From: Methylophilus rhizosphaerae
Lineage (GTDB): Bacteria > Pseudomonadota > Gammaproteobacteria > Burkholderiales > Methylophilaceae
DNA length: 64,000 nt
Assembly: GCF_900100975.1 (NCBI RefSeq)
Contig: NZ_FNFX01000004.1
Coordinates: forward strand, 310,001 to 374,000
Direction: 5' to 3'
The notes beneath the pieces were generated by a model. It was not told where the DNA came from. It saw only the letters and a program-made list of their open reading frames with translations, and searched no databases. This document shows positions 59,203-64,000 of the stretch, in pieces (the first letter of the stretch is position 1; the number at the start of each line of letters is the position of its first letter). The position numbers were made by a program, and so were the translations under genes.

Positions 59203-59225
59203 AACAATTTTGTATTTCGGATTGC

Positions 59226-59276
59226 TTGACACACAGAAGGGATCGTCTTAATGTATATACATGGATAAACATGTAT
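59226..59276. promoter_or_regulatory. VapBC-type promoter/operator
   Basis: A perfect -35 TTGACA (59226-59231) is followed by a 12-bp perfect palindrome ATGTATATACAT (59251-59262) and a further ATGTAT (59271-59276). This gives three half-sites, of which ATACAT/ATGTAT flank 8 bp. The palindrome overlaps the expected -10 and start region, which suits autorepression by the antitoxin-toxin complex. The operator ends 12 bp before the antitoxin ATG. Confidence 0.65.
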
Positions 59277-59288
59277 CGGAGGCAAGTC

Positions 59289-59537
59289 ATGGAATTACAA
59301 ATCGCAAAATGGGGTAACAGTCTTGCAGTCCGCTTACCTTCCAGTATCGCCAAACAAATGCAAATTCAGGATGGCGACAGTGTAGAAGTCAGCTTAAACC
59401 CACAAGGTGAACTGGTGCTTGCCCCCAAAAAACCTTTTGATAAAGCCGAGTTTATGCAGGATTTACTGGCTTTACAAAAAACGCTGCCAGAGACAAGTTC
59501 AGTGATTGATATCATGCGTAATCAAGAACGTTATTAA
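59289..59537 (+). CDS. vapB: AbrB/SpoVT-type antitoxin (VapB/MazE-like)
   Basis: 82 residues from the ATG at 59289, after CGGAGG. The swapped-hairpin AbrB fold is evident in LQIAKWGNSLAVRLPSSIAK and QIQDGDSVEVSLNPQGELVL. The C-terminal tail (FDKAEFMQDLLALQKTL) would wrap the toxin. It precedes a PIN-domain toxin by 2 bp. Confidence 0.88.
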   Translation: MELQIAKWGNSLAVRLPSSIAKQMQIQDGDSVEVSLNPQGELVLAPKKPFDKAEFMQDLLALQKTLPETSSVIDIMRNQERY

Positions 59538-59539
59538 CC

Positions 59540-59959
59540 ATGTGCTATGTAGATACCAGCGTTATCGTTGCCATGCTCACGCACGAGCCAAAGTCCTTAG
59601 CTTGTATTGATTGGTTTAAAAATCAAAAGCAGCCACCGCAAAGCAGTGATTGGTTAATCACAGAATTTAATAGCGCCATTTCCCTCAAGCTGCGCACTGG
59701 GCAGTTACAGACAGATCAAGCCTTGGCCATTTTGCAAACATTCGAAACCCTGATTAATGGCGGCATCAAACTTTTACCGATCAATCGGGAAATTTACAGC
59801 CAGGCCGGGGCATTGATTTGTAGCAATCCTAATCTGCGCGCAGGTGATGCATTGCACATCAGTGTGGCATTAGGTGCTGGAATAAAAGAGTTTGTGACTT
59901 TGGATAATAATCAGGCAAAAGCCGCTCAAGCAATAGGCTTTAATTGTGAGGTAATTTGA
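59540..59959 (+). CDS. vapC: PIN-domain ribonuclease toxin (VapC)
   Basis: 139 residues. The PIN fold's acidic residues are present: D5 (YVDTSVIVAML), Glu in LITEFNSAISLK, and Asp in AGDALHISVAL plus VTLDNNQ. VapC toxins cut specific tRNAs or rRNA. All acidic positions are kept, so it should be active when free of VapB. It starts 2 bp after the antitoxin gene. Confidence 0.9.
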   Translation: MCYVDTSVIVAMLTHEPKSLACIDWFKNQKQPPQSSDWLITEFNSAISLKLRTGQLQTDQALAILQTFETLINGGIKLLPINREIYSQAGALICSNPNLRAGDALHISVALGAGIKEFVTLDNNQAKAAQAIGFNCEVI

Positions 59960-60015
59960 TTTTGTAATGCTCACCCATTAGCTTCTCGTATGAGGCCGAA
60001 TCAAAAGGTTTCTAA

Positions 60016-61200
60016 GTGACAACGAAAAATATTCTTCAAGGAGTTAGAGCTTTCAGTCCGCTTTTACATGCTTATGAAGCAGGACACTCTATTGAGGAAA
60101 TAAAAGCAAGCATCATCGGCATTCTGGAACCAGAGTTCCAGAATGTGACTATGCTTGATAGATATGGAATTGACTTATTAGCTGTTGAGGCTGTAAACGT
60201 AGCAAAGATTCGTAATTCTGATTGGGCATCAAGATTGTTTGATGAGTGTCTACAAATTCGTCGGAAATACTTCACTATTGATGAAGATGGGTGTGCGAGA
60301 GTTTATGCTGCCTGGGAAGAATCTATTGGTACAGCTCTTTCTCTTTATTGGAACAATGCTCGATTTGAACACCACAAAGCTGACTTGCCACTTGATGAGT
60401 TTGCATTCGAAATTTTCCGCAATATGGGTGCTTTAATTGAAGGAACACTTCAGGTGTATCTCAAAGAGCTTCTCCATTTTATTCATAAATTACAGAATGA
60501 TATTCAGACGTTCTCAGATATTAATTCATTAAGCCTCGGCACAATTGTTAGTCGAATAGGAGAAAAGTCAGGCCTGGCTCCCTATCTAACATTGCCGCCT
60601 TGGAATGTACCCATTAATCAATGGAGAAATATAGCTCAACACTATTCAATGAGTACTAATAAGGACTTGATCAACTGTAGATACGGAACAAAAAATCAAT
60701 ACAGTATTTCTCTAACGCGATCTGAGTTACTTGAAGTAGCACGATCTCTTTTTCTGATATTTTCCTCTATTAGAACTGCACACACGGTCTTTGCATTAGA
60801 CTATGCTGATAGGTTGGTGTCCCACTGTAAAGGATTTGAGCGGAAGAAATCCGACTTACAATTTCAGTTTGTAGTTGGTGTTGCTTCTCAAGGTTTTGAA
60901 GTAATCGATTTAGAAGTTTCTGATGAATGTGCTAAAGCAGTGCTCGCGGATGTGACCACTCAAGATCCTCATGCAAGATCAATTCATGCATCACAGTTTG
61001 TTTACTCACTGTGGGATGCCACATATTCAAAAAAATTGATTATTGATTACAAGGCAAAATCTGGAGGCATCGCATTGCGTACAACTGCAAAAGCGGAAGA
61101 CTGTGAGAAAATATCCAATGGTGAAGAGGAATTTTCTTATCTAGCAAAAGTAGTTTCGTTTGAATTGGATCCCCCGATAGAAAAAGTTGTTAAAGAGTAA
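60016..61200 (+). CDS. Unknown protein with HEPN-like motif, 394 residues
   Basis: GTG start with AAAAGG seven bases upstream. No known family recognised. The middle contains WRNIAQHYS (R204-N-x3-H209), which fits the R-[NDH]-x3-4-H signature of HEPN ribonucleases and sits in a helix-rich segment. The C-terminal third is beta-rich (LQFQFVVGVASQGFEVIDLE). No signal peptide or membrane helix. The base composition is poorer in GC than that of its neighbours, and it lies between a toxin-antitoxin pair and tesA, so recent gain and a defence role are plausible but unproven. Confidence 0.6.
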   Translation: MTTKNILQGVRAFSPLLHAYEAGHSIEEIKASIIGILEPEFQNVTMLDRYGIDLLAVEAVNVAKIRNSDWASRLFDECLQIRRKYFTIDEDGCARVYAAWEESIGTALSLYWNNARFEHHKADLPLDEFAFEIFRNMGALIEGTLQVYLKELLHFIHKLQNDIQTFSDINSLSLGTIVSRIGEKSGLAPYLTLPPWNVPINQWRNIAQHYSMSTNKDLINCRYGTKNQYSISLTRSELLEVARSLFLIFSSIRTAHTVFALDYADRLVSHCKGFERKKSDLQFQFVVGVASQGFEVIDLEVSDECAKAVLADVTTQDPHARSIHASQFVYSLWDATYSKKLIIDYKAKSGGIALRTTAKAEDCEKISNGEEEFSYLAKVVSFELDPPIEKVVKE

Positions 61201-61226
61201 CAATTTGAGTTTTGATTAACTTCTTC

Positions 61227-61855: not shown

Positions 61856-62575
61856 ATGCAAAGCCCTTATGCTGTTGAAGCGCTGTCTCTAAGTAAATCC
61901 GTTGTCAGTAATCATACAACAATCCCCATTTTGGCCGATTTGAATCTTGCCGTACCCAATGGCGAGCGGCTGGCGATTATCGGTAGCTCGGGTTCCGGTA
62001 AATCGACCTTGCTGGGGTTGCTGGCAGGTTTGGACACTGTCAGTAGCGGAAAAGTCCTGATCGCCGGTAAAGATATTGGCCAGATGGATGAAGACGGCCG
62101 TGCAGCGGTGCGTGCCCAGCATATGGGCTTTGTGTTTCAATCATTTCAGTTGCTGGGCTCGCTGACTGCTTTGGAGAATGTAATGCTGCCTATGCAGCTG
62201 GCAGGCCAGCGTAATGCGCAGGCGATTGCAATCGCGGCATTGGAAAGTGTAGGCCTGGCGTCGCGTGCCACGCACTATCCAAAACATTTGTCTGGCGGCG
62301 AGCAGCAGCGGGTCGCGATCGCCAGGGCATTTGCCGCCAAGCCTTCGATTTTGTTTGCCGATGAGCCGACCGGTAACCTGGATGTCGCGACTGGCGAAGC
62401 GATCATTAAGTTGCTGTTTGATTTAAACACACAGAGCGGGACTACGCTGGTGCTGGTCACGCATGATATGAACCTGGCGCGGCGTTGCCAGCGGGTGCTT
62501 AATTTGCAGAACGGCCAGTTGAAGGAAATTGTGCTCAACGAACGCACCGTGACCGATAGCTCGGGAGTGCATTAA
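61856..62575 (+). CDS. ybbA: ABC transporter ATP-binding protein YbbA
   Basis: 239 residues, LolD/MacB-like ATPase: Walker A GSSGSGKSTLLGLLAG, signature LSGGEQQRVAIARA, Walker B ILFADEPTGNLD and the switch His in LVTHDMN. It pairs with the FtsX-type permease that starts at its stop codon. The substrate of the YbbA-YbbP exporter is not established. Divergence from tesA is common. Confidence 0.93.
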   Translation: MQSPYAVEALSLSKSVVSNHTTIPILADLNLAVPNGERLAIIGSSGSGKSTLLGLLAGLDTVSSGKVLIAGKDIGQMDEDGRAAVRAQHMGFVFQSFQLLGSLTALENVMLPMQLAGQRNAQAIAIAALESVGLASRATHYPKHLSGGEQQRVAIARAFAAKPSILFADEPTGNLDVATGEAIIKLLFDLNTQSGTTLVLVTHDMNLARRCQRVLNLQNGQLKEIVLNERTVTDSSGVH

Positions 62576-64000
62576 TGCTGGCGTTATCCATTGCCTGGCG
62601 TCAGTGCCGCAGCCTGTGGTCATCGGGTGAAATACGTGTATTGCTGTTTGCCTTGATTTTGGCGGTTACGGCGACCACCTCAGTCAGTTTTTTCACTGAC
62701 CGTATCAAATCCAGTATGCAAACCCAGGGCAATGTGCTGCTGGGGGCGGATCTGGTGGTGAACTCGGACCATGCCATACCGGCAGCCTACAAGGCAGAAG
62801 CACAACAACGCCAATACCAGACCTCGCAGGCGCTGGAGTTTTCCAGCATGGTGCTGAAAGGCGACAGTAGCGAGCTGGCTGAAATCAAAGCGGTGGAAGC
62901 AGGTTTTCCGCTGCGTGGCCATTTAACCATTAGCAAGCGGGCAGCCACCGCGAAAGGTGAATTAACTTCAGCAGAAATTCCCGCCAGTGGAACAGTTTGG
63001 ATAGAGCCGCGACTGGCGCAAAAACTCGCATTGAAGATAGGCGATGAAGTCAGCGTAGGTGAAAGCCAGTTCAAGATAGCGGCATTTTTGCTGCAAGAGC
63101 CTTCCCGGGGCGGCGATATGTTCAGTATCGCGCCGCGTCTGCTGATGAATGGTGCTGATGTCGAAGCCACCGGTTTGGTGCAGTTTGGCAGCCGGGTGAA
63201 ATACCAGTTACTGGTTGCTGCCAATAGTGAAGGTACAGAGGTTAACCAGGCGATGGAAGACTACGCCGAATGGCTGAAGCCGCAACTAGCGCGAGGTGAA
63301 CGCGTAGATGATATCCGCAGCGCCCGCCCGGAAATGCGCAATGCGCTGAACAAAGCGCAACAATTCCTCGGCATTGCCTCTATGGTCGGCGTGATCCTGG
63401 CGATGGTGGCGATGTTGCTGGCGAGTATCCCCTATGTGCAGAAAAGCCTGGATGCGTATGCCTTGATGCGCTGTTTTGGCGCGACCAAAAAGCTGATCAC
63501 GCAGATTCTGCTTTATCAGACTTTGCTGCTGGCGTTGGTGGGTAGCGTGATTGGTTGTGTACTGGGCTTTGCCGCGCAATATGGCTTGGCGATTCTAGCT
63601 GGGCGTCTGTTTCTGGAAACCCTGCCTGCCCCTGGCTGGATGCCGGTTTTATTGGGCTTAGTCACCGGATTTTCTACCCTGCTCACGGTTGTCTGGCCGC
63701 AATTGATGCGCTTACGCGCAGTGCCAGCATTACGCATATTGCGCCAGGACCTGGAAGGCAATGTGCACACCAATGGCATCGTGTTTCTGCCAGCATTACT
63801 GGTGTTGGCCGGGCTGGTGTTCTGGCATGCGGGTGATATCAAACTGGCCGGGATTGTATTCGCGGCGCTGGTGGCCTTGGTCGTAGTCGCGGGGTTTCTG
63901 GCATACGCCGGCATGCGTCTTGTACAGTCTTTCAGTGTGCAAAATTTTGGTGTGATCAAGCTGGGTTTGATGGGCTTAAGACGCCGCCCGATATTGACCA
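62575..64000 (+). CDS. ybbP: FtsX-like ABC permease YbbP (partial)
   Basis: Open from the ATG at 62575 (TAATG overlap with ybbA) to the window end, about 475 codons of a family that is usually about 800-850 residues. Start MLALSIAWRQCRSLWSSGEI. The first helix (VLLFALILAVTATTSVSFFT), a periplasmic region (residues about 45-255), then membrane helices (FLGIASMVGVILAMVAMLLA; LLLALVGSVIGCVLGFA) are seen. It forms the membrane part of the YbbA transporter. The C-terminal half lies beyond the window. Confidence 0.9.
   Translation, partial: MLALSIAWRQCRSLWSSGEIRVLLFALILAVTATTSVSFFTDRIKSSMQTQGNVLLGADLVVNSDHAIPAAYKAEAQQRQYQTSQALEFSSMVLKGDSSELAEIKAVEAGFPLRGHLTISKRAATAKGELTSAEIPASGTVWIEPRLAQKLALKIGDEVSVGESQFKIAAFLLQEPSRGGDMFSIAPRLLMNGADVEATGLVQFGSRVKYQLLVAANSEGTEVNQAMEDYAEWLKPQLARGERVDDIRSARPEMRNALNKAQQFLGIASMVGVILAMVAMLLASIPYVQKSLDAYALMRCFGATKKLITQILLYQTLLLALVGSVIGCVLGFAAQYGLAILAGRLFLETLPAPGWMPVLLGLVTGFSTLLTVVWPQLMRLRAVPALRILRQDLEGNVHTNGIVFLPALLVLAGLVFWHAGDIKLAGIVFAALVALVVVAGFLAYAGMRLVQSFSVQNFGVIKLGLMGLRRRPILT

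Follow-up and report, generated by a model that had tools for sequence, protein, structure and literature searches.

The interval between recQ and tesA in Methylophilus rhizosphaerae is part of the window, the 64,000-nucleotide stretch of DNA that was analysed here. The interval contains a MazE-family antitoxin gene, a gene for a PIN-domain toxin, and a gene encoding a protein of 394 residues, the subject of this study (Table 1). The gene is flanked by gaps of 56 bp and 26 bp. The reading frame, its GTG start and the AT-rich composition given in the preliminary description of the locus are confirmed: the GC content of the gene is 0.386, compared to 0.501 in the window and 0.543 in recQ, and its GC3 is 0.30, compared to 0.58 in recQ. 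The sequence WRNIAQHYS, which had been singled out as a possible HEPN-like motif with R204 and H209, is located at W203-S211.

Table 1 Features of the recQ-tesA interval and of the 394-residue protein encoded in it.
Feature	Coordinates	Strand	Basis
Variable recQ-tesA interval (cargo hotspot)	59203..61226	.	Differs in 8/8 congeners; flanks collinear in 7; empty in G009
MazE-family antitoxin gene, neighbour, not partner	59289..59537	+	PF04014 6.4e-14; present in G013 without the 394-residue gene
PIN-domain toxin gene, neighbour, not partner	59540..59959	+	PF01850 2.1e-12
Gene of the 394-residue HEPN-family protein (HEPN reading from predicted structure), GTG start	60016..61200	+	ORF list; N-terminus matches the Azospira homologue (69% identity)
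N-terminal all-helical region (residues 1-88)	60016..60279	+	AlphaFold2 helices 2-13, 15-21, 26-40, 44-66, 69-88
HEPN-like domain (residues about 98-263)	60307..60804	+	Domain model; HEPN chains are VIA rows 1-15; Csm6 and HI0074 in whole-model list
E142 codon, invariant acidic residue, core helix 2 (residues 126-159)	60439..60441	+	16/16 rows of A3 and two phage rows of A1
R204-N205-I-A-Q-H209, predicted catalytic HEPN motif, end of helix 200-209	60625..60642	+	Kept in 4/4 homologues not picked by motif
C-terminal alpha/beta domain (residues about 276-390)	60841..61185	+	AlphaFold2 model; CDF C-terminal domain likeness, weaker NrnA-type phosphodiesterase likeness

The content of the recQ-tesA interval varies within the genus. 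Eight congeners were compared, those whose tesA is closest to that of the window (81% or more; loci L054-L061). All of them differ from the window in this interval, and both flanks are collinear in seven; the contig of the eighth, G018, ends. The two flanking genes are separated by only 83 bp in G009, in which the interval is empty. A DUF4062 protein is encoded there in G003, DUF4062 and SLATT_5 proteins (Pfam) in G004, two genes of no recognised kind in G015, and a gene with a sub-threshold DUF5677 match together with a small protein containing EQRNLLTHG in G005. The interval of G021 holds a Gp49-type toxin (Pfam), an HTH gene (by eye) and two others, and that of G018 similar HigBA-like genes and a protein with EQRNNLIHG. 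G013 has the same MazE/PIN pair as the window, with 83% DNA identity, together with a gene judged by eye to be XRE-type and three or more further genes. The EQRNLLTHG and EQRNNLIHG proteins, 144-145 residues long (L057 5367-5801 in G005; L061 4849-5286 in G018), are possibly a second HEPN-like family; the L057 protein has no match in Pfam. Between tesA and the cargo of G018 is a 145-bp stretch similar to the 3' end of recQ (L061 4621-4765), which might reflect insertion near that end. A literature search on recQ, hotspots and defense islands returned a single match, which concerns phage hotspots.

The MazE/PIN pair is VapBC-like and directly precedes the 394-residue gene, so the adjacency to a toxin-antitoxin pair claimed in the preliminary description is correct. 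A functional link between the two is not borne out: because G013 has the pair without the 394-residue gene, the pair and the gene are regarded as separate cargo. No MNT nucleotidyltransferase was found beside the window gene, the neighbours of which are the MazE/PIN pair and tesA. Comparison of 171 neighbouring ORFs of at least 60 residues from 22 loci produced three cross-locus matches, and every family is confined to one or two loci (E 1e-3). From this gene content we infer that the protein acts alone. Upstream gaps at the other loci range from 55 to 614 bp, and a small antitoxin RNA is therefore possible there. Beside the window gene, the only Rfam matches are two miRNA models that fall well short of their gathering scores. 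Promoters and terminators were predicted at fewer sites than in shuffled sequences.

Relatives of the protein are rare in every genome sample and are scattered across phyla. A tblastn search of phages identified a protein of Terrisporobacter phage TPDSL_ph1 (24% identity over 96%, E 4e-25), a phage mentioned in PMC11253131, and a protein of the filamentous Vibrio phage PE002 (31% over residues 134-245, E 1e-5). One clear relative, from Thalassotalea (G415, E 3e-42), was present in a sample of 398 genomes of the phylum that included the genome of the window, and a profile search of 345 genomes of the order of G415, itself included, added one more (G854), which is broken by a stop and a frame change. 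Only the window gene itself was recovered from 369 genomes of the class, and none of the 100 related genomes searched besides that of the window carries it. A scan of 84,980 species genomes with a motif pattern returned 26 stretches, 19 of which are relatives (L012-L030, one being that of Thalassotalea again) from Pseudomonadota, Thermodesulfobacteriota, Chloroflexota, Chlorobiota and Bacillota. Together with the two phage proteins (L004 and L005), these form the set of 21 relatives considered below. Since the scan pattern was made of the motif, conservation of the motif in L012-L030 is not independent evidence.

The nearest kin are from Azospira oryzae (69%), Halomonas (59%) and Pseudoalteromonas (54%, broken frame). 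In the tree, which has good support for seven of its 15 inner branches and long branches for several rows, the window protein groups with those of Azospira and Halomonas, and phyla are mixed. Horizontal acquisition is the simplest account of the gene, because the tree mixes phyla and the gene is absent from the 100 related genomes. Other searches added little: none of 27 stretches from a genome-contig scan with the single window protein was confirmed, plasmids gave tblastn matches at E 2-6 only with the window protein and none with two relatives, and viral contigs yielded one confirmed stretch, and no locus, with the window protein and nothing with alignments A1 and A2. Two viral contigs (L010 and L011) are 97-99% identical to the TPDSL_ph1 protein and end short of the motif; they are not counted among the relatives. 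A match in G325 (E 0.0075) was dropped, as it has ten stops in frame and was not recovered by the profile.

Alignment A3 has 16 rows, the window protein and 15 of the 19 loci; L014, L020, L028 and L030 were left out as broken or partial, and the motif is readable in all four. The homologue of L017 seems to lack the N-terminus. The reading frames of four relatives (L014, L020, L030 and L073) are interrupted, which may reflect the decay of a costly gene or sequencing error. In eight of the 16 rows of A3 the start codon is GTG or TTG instead of ATG, mostly at the first possible start; these codons might serve deliberately low translation.

The protein had been described as unrecognised, and no credible family was found in Pfam, NCBIfam, PADLOC, PHROGs or the sequences of the PDB. 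Pfam gave DraIII alone, an identity rejected at E 0.06, below the cut-off; NCBIfam and PADLOC gave no family, PHROGs one weak match (E 0.4), and the PDB sequence search none. Matches of the relatives and alignments were rejected as well: DUF7004 (E 0.0024 in just one of the four rows of A1), a PADLOC homing endonuclease, Csn2 and Csx23 (E 0.0027-0.012, each in one of 16 rows), NCBIfam families (E 0.036 or worse, single rows), and 2lcu, found with the A4 profile in the PDB (E 0.16). A profile match to influenza hemagglutinin HA2 in the PDB (best E 0.0005, profile positions 6-112) was attributed to long-helix similarity, because it is confined to the N-terminal helices and there is no common motif. 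A search with PF18928 provided no lead. HEPN models are absent among the Pfam, NCBIfam and PADLOC matches of any of the 16 rows (E<=1), and the sensitive profile search that the preliminary description had proposed thus gave no link from the family to any HEPN model.

The structure of the protein was predicted with AlphaFold2, for the whole chain from 16 rows (mean pLDDT 88, pTM 0.80) and for residues 88-272 as a separate domain (pLDDT 92, pTM 0.88). The central domain is predicted to have a core of four helices, formed by residues 90-116, 126-159, 174-185 with 200-209, and 235-262. Three short predicted strands (residues 212-233) are inserted between core helices 3 and 4 and appear to be an addition peculiar to this family. 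The preliminary description had made the HEPN reading dependent on a four-helix bundle around R204 and H209; the predicted bundle surrounds both residues, and the motif ends the third core helix.

The structure comparison envisaged in the preliminary description places HEPN domains at the top, in a re-ranking by VIA-align of 767 Foldseek candidates for the isolated domain, which is not an independent search. Foldseek alone gave no match at E<=0.001 with the whole or the domain model and listed the HEPN chain 4nqf at rank 19 (E 3.6); a search of BFVD with the whole model was likewise negative at E<=0.001. HEPN domains of about eight distinct proteins occupy VIA rows 1-15, with Z scores of 8.3-6.1. 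The first is 7ae6 (Z 8.3, rmsd 5.1, 140 aligned of 147), and 7ae8 reaches Z 8.1 (rmsd 4.5, 142 aligned of 152); further HEPN-MNT toxins including SO_3166 follow, and then 4nqf, HI0074, YutE, AF0298 and Csm6. Level with the lowest of these rows is the ROQ-domain structure of Roquin (Z 6.0), which we take to have HEPN parts too, and below it are the HEPN domain of sacsin (5.9), rhodopsin and a receptor (5.8). HI0074 (1jog), YutE (1ylm) and AF0298 (2hsb) are named as HEPN proteins in the available text of PMC3710099. The Z values are modest, and the tool warns that helical bundles can score equally high by chance; unrelated helical chains reach 5.8-5.9 with the domain and 5.5 with the whole model. 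Csm6 (6.1, 5.9 and 5.5) and HI0074 (5.8) are in the whole-model list. The argument for the HEPN fold is based on the uniformly HEPN top rows and the placement of the motif, and the predicted structure supports the HEPN reading of the protein. Residues 276-350 resemble the C-terminal domains of the CDF proteins ZnT, YiiP and MamM (VIA Z 6.3-4.3), and the C-terminal domain also resembles part of NrnA/PDE (Z 4.3-4.2); it is possibly a sensor or an RNA-binding part.

On its own, the RN-x3-H motif is a weak lead. It occurs in 87 of 5000 shuffles of the protein and in one of 55 picked ORFs of the window of at least 100 residues, namely the one studied here; the looser R-x4-6-H is found in 34 of the same 55. 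The motif becomes significant because it is conserved in distant homologues. All four homologues found by full-length similarity keep RNxxxH, those of TPDSL_ph1, PE002, Thalassotalea and G854 (as RNIACH, RNISNH, RNIAQH and RNISAH), which is the outcome that the preliminary description had expected for R204 and H209. Their scores include the motif region, so this conservation is not wholly independent of the motif, and the profile that found G854 was itself built from rows chosen by the motif pattern. The conservation argument rests on these otherwise found relatives and on E142, G175 and Y223, which are outside the pattern. E142 is present in all 16 rows of A3 and also in the two phage rows of A1.

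According to the parts of PMC3710099 that were available, HEPN domains are defined by an R-x4-6-H motif that closes helix 3 and in which a polar residue follows the arginine, and many families have an acidic residue in helix 2, typically as Ex3[KR]. R204-N205-x3-H209 agrees with this definition, and in the predicted models R204-H209 closes helix 200-209, the third core helix, as the description requires. The K/R part of Ex3[KR] is partly present, because the fourth residue after E142 is K in five, Q in ten and F in one of the 16 rows. R204 is probably equivalent, judging from the models, to the catalytic arginines of solved HEPN domains.

At least eight of the 21 relatives are located in phages, in a prophage or beside defence-type genes, as judged by eye unless Pfam is named, on contigs of 3.4 to 17 kb and without a background rate for the counts. 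In addition to the two phage genomes, they comprise a Villigracilaceae locus in which the homologue follows a PIN gene (L015), a Roseateles locus with AbiEi/AbiEii alongside (L017), a type I restriction locus that also contains an integrase and an AAA_21 gene (L022), a Dnd locus where one gene has sub-threshold HNH and NB-ARC matches (L025), a locus with a SIR2_2 gene and a recombinase alongside (L028), and a Mu-like prophage (L030). Two contexts are harder to classify, that of L013, with a transposase and a weak NYN match, and that of L027, with an integrase at a distance of about 6 kb. L026, L027 and L028 are nearly identical copies of a single gene and thus not independent. In 11 of the 21, no neighbour of a defence or mobile kind was seen on these contigs. 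The putative defence role proposed in the preliminary description has thus gained support from context, that is, from these relatives and the recQ-tesA cargo site; its other part, ribonuclease and protective activity, is a prediction.

Three loci contain further features. In L012 (5393-7927), the Azospira homologue is preceded, at a distance of 55 bp, by a permease gene that shares about 41% identity with the permease near the 394-residue gene (window 62575-63999); tesA and the ABC ATPase have no match in that locus. Behind the homologue in TPDSL_ph1 are a gene annotated as a transcriptional regulator and one for a 481-residue protein (L004 9484-10929) with an N-terminus that is SIR2- or AbiH-like by eye, for which Pfam gives no match at E 0.001. 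In Thaumasiovibrio (L030 8625-9641), the gene after the broken relative contains VRNIRNH, another RN-x3-H sequence, and possibly encodes a further HEPN-like protein.

HEPN RNases are recurrent effectors of bacterial immunity. The 394-residue protein is probably a solitary HEPN endoribonuclease of an apparently undescribed family that acts by abortive infection. In the proposed mechanism, the central HEPN domain (residues about 98-263) would dimerise, and R204, N205 and H209 of two subunits would form a metal-independent RNA-cutting site supported by E142 of helix 2. The N-terminal helical region, the C-terminal alpha/beta domain, or both would hold the enzyme inactive in the absence of a phage-derived trigger. 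Once activated, it would cleave the RNA of cell and phage alike, and growth would stop. The anti-phage effect and its trigger, like the dimerisation and the RNase activity, are predictions. It is a more tentative idea, and one we hold with reservation, that the proteins are a new single-gene phage-defence RNase family in which the extra domains on either side of a HEPN core with strands are a phage sensor, so that one protein detects infection and kills, with the CDF-like C-terminal domain as a switch that responds to a small ligand, a metal ion or a phage protein.

The protein could instead be the HEPN toxin of a two-component toxin-antitoxin system, with the MazE/PIN pair, an overlooked small gene or an RNA as its antitoxin, and would then serve the maintenance of the element and not defence. 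HEPN proteins are components of many toxin-antitoxin systems (PMC3710099, as far as its available text goes), the pair is 56 bp upstream, and the PIN gene of L015 and AbiEi/AbiEii of L017 are similar surroundings. However, the pair of G013 does without the 394-residue gene, the PIN protein of L015 is dissimilar to that of the window at E 1e-3, no neighbouring family of ORFs of at least 60 residues extends beyond two of the 22 loci, and the short gaps beside the window gene are accompanied by no credible Rfam match; a toxin of this kind is thus unlikely.

The solitary position of the gene, and the 11 of 21 relatives among genes without an evident defence role, would also suit a HEPN protein without catalytic activity, or one that only binds RNA, in a housekeeping or regulatory function, as proposed for some MtlR-type proteins. 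This is quite unlikely in view of the retention of R, N and H in the four relatives not chosen by motif and of E142 in all rows, since inactive versions are marked by loss of the motif and not by its retention in the available text of PMC3710099; the very patchy distribution and several broken copies also speak against it. A four-helix likeness due to chance, in an enzyme of some other kind from a mobile island, would agree with the weak Foldseek scores, the modest VIA Z values and the missing profile link, but it is very unlikely given the HEPN chains in rows 1-15 and a motif and acidic residue placed as the HEPN description says.

Among known systems, the nearest functional parallel to a solitary HEPN endoribonuclease would, by analogy, be Tha, a HEPN protein of Staphylococcus aureus prophages that is activated by phage tail proteins and carries R265NSIMH270 in Tha-1. 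According to the accessible text of PMC11087260, Tha-1 and Tha-2 are likewise single, phage-carried HEPN proteins with RN-x3-H, and Tha is a non-specific RNase with an Abi-like effect. By contrast, Tha-1 has 301 residues and a C-terminal HEPN domain, whereas that of the 394-residue protein is predicted to be central, with inserted strands and an alpha/beta domain after it. Alignment of the family with Tha-1 by hhalign gave a probability of 0.3, so no sequence similarity was detected, and distant families may escape such a match. The closest fold matches are HEPN-MNT toxins (7ae6/7ae8, 5yep and 6m6u; Z 8.3-7.2); unlike the 394-residue protein, these consist of one domain of about 125-150 residues and have an MNT antitoxin as partner, and a nucleotidyltransferase neighbour (AbiEii) occurs only at L017 among the neighbours scanned. 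Csm6, the CARF-HEPN RNase of type III CRISPR systems, also has HEPN in a larger protein (Z 6.2-5.5), and its active site is like the predicted one: in TtCsm6, Arg415, Asn416 and His422 line the dimer cleft and were, together with nearby Glu332, probed by mutation (PMC4748810, in its available parts). The 394-residue protein differs from Csm6 in having extra domains on both sides of HEPN; no CARF domain was recognised in it, residues 1-88 being all helical in the model and the full protein having no credible Pfam match.

The string RNIAQH was not found in the literature searched, and the family was not recognised, by title or abstract, among the matches listed for HEPN proteins in abortive infection, RNase, anti-phage, and standalone or prophage settings. 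The excerpted text of PMC9519451 reports remote HEPN similarity in six of 21 systems. Judged from titles and abstracts, the family is apparently an undescribed one that belongs to a known kind and has a domain layout of its own.

If the proposed function is correct, a rare, solitary family spread across phyla, with flanking domains of its own, would be a self-contained sensor-effector with testable catalytic residues. Other undescribed cargo genes may be sought in the recQ-tesA interval of the genus.
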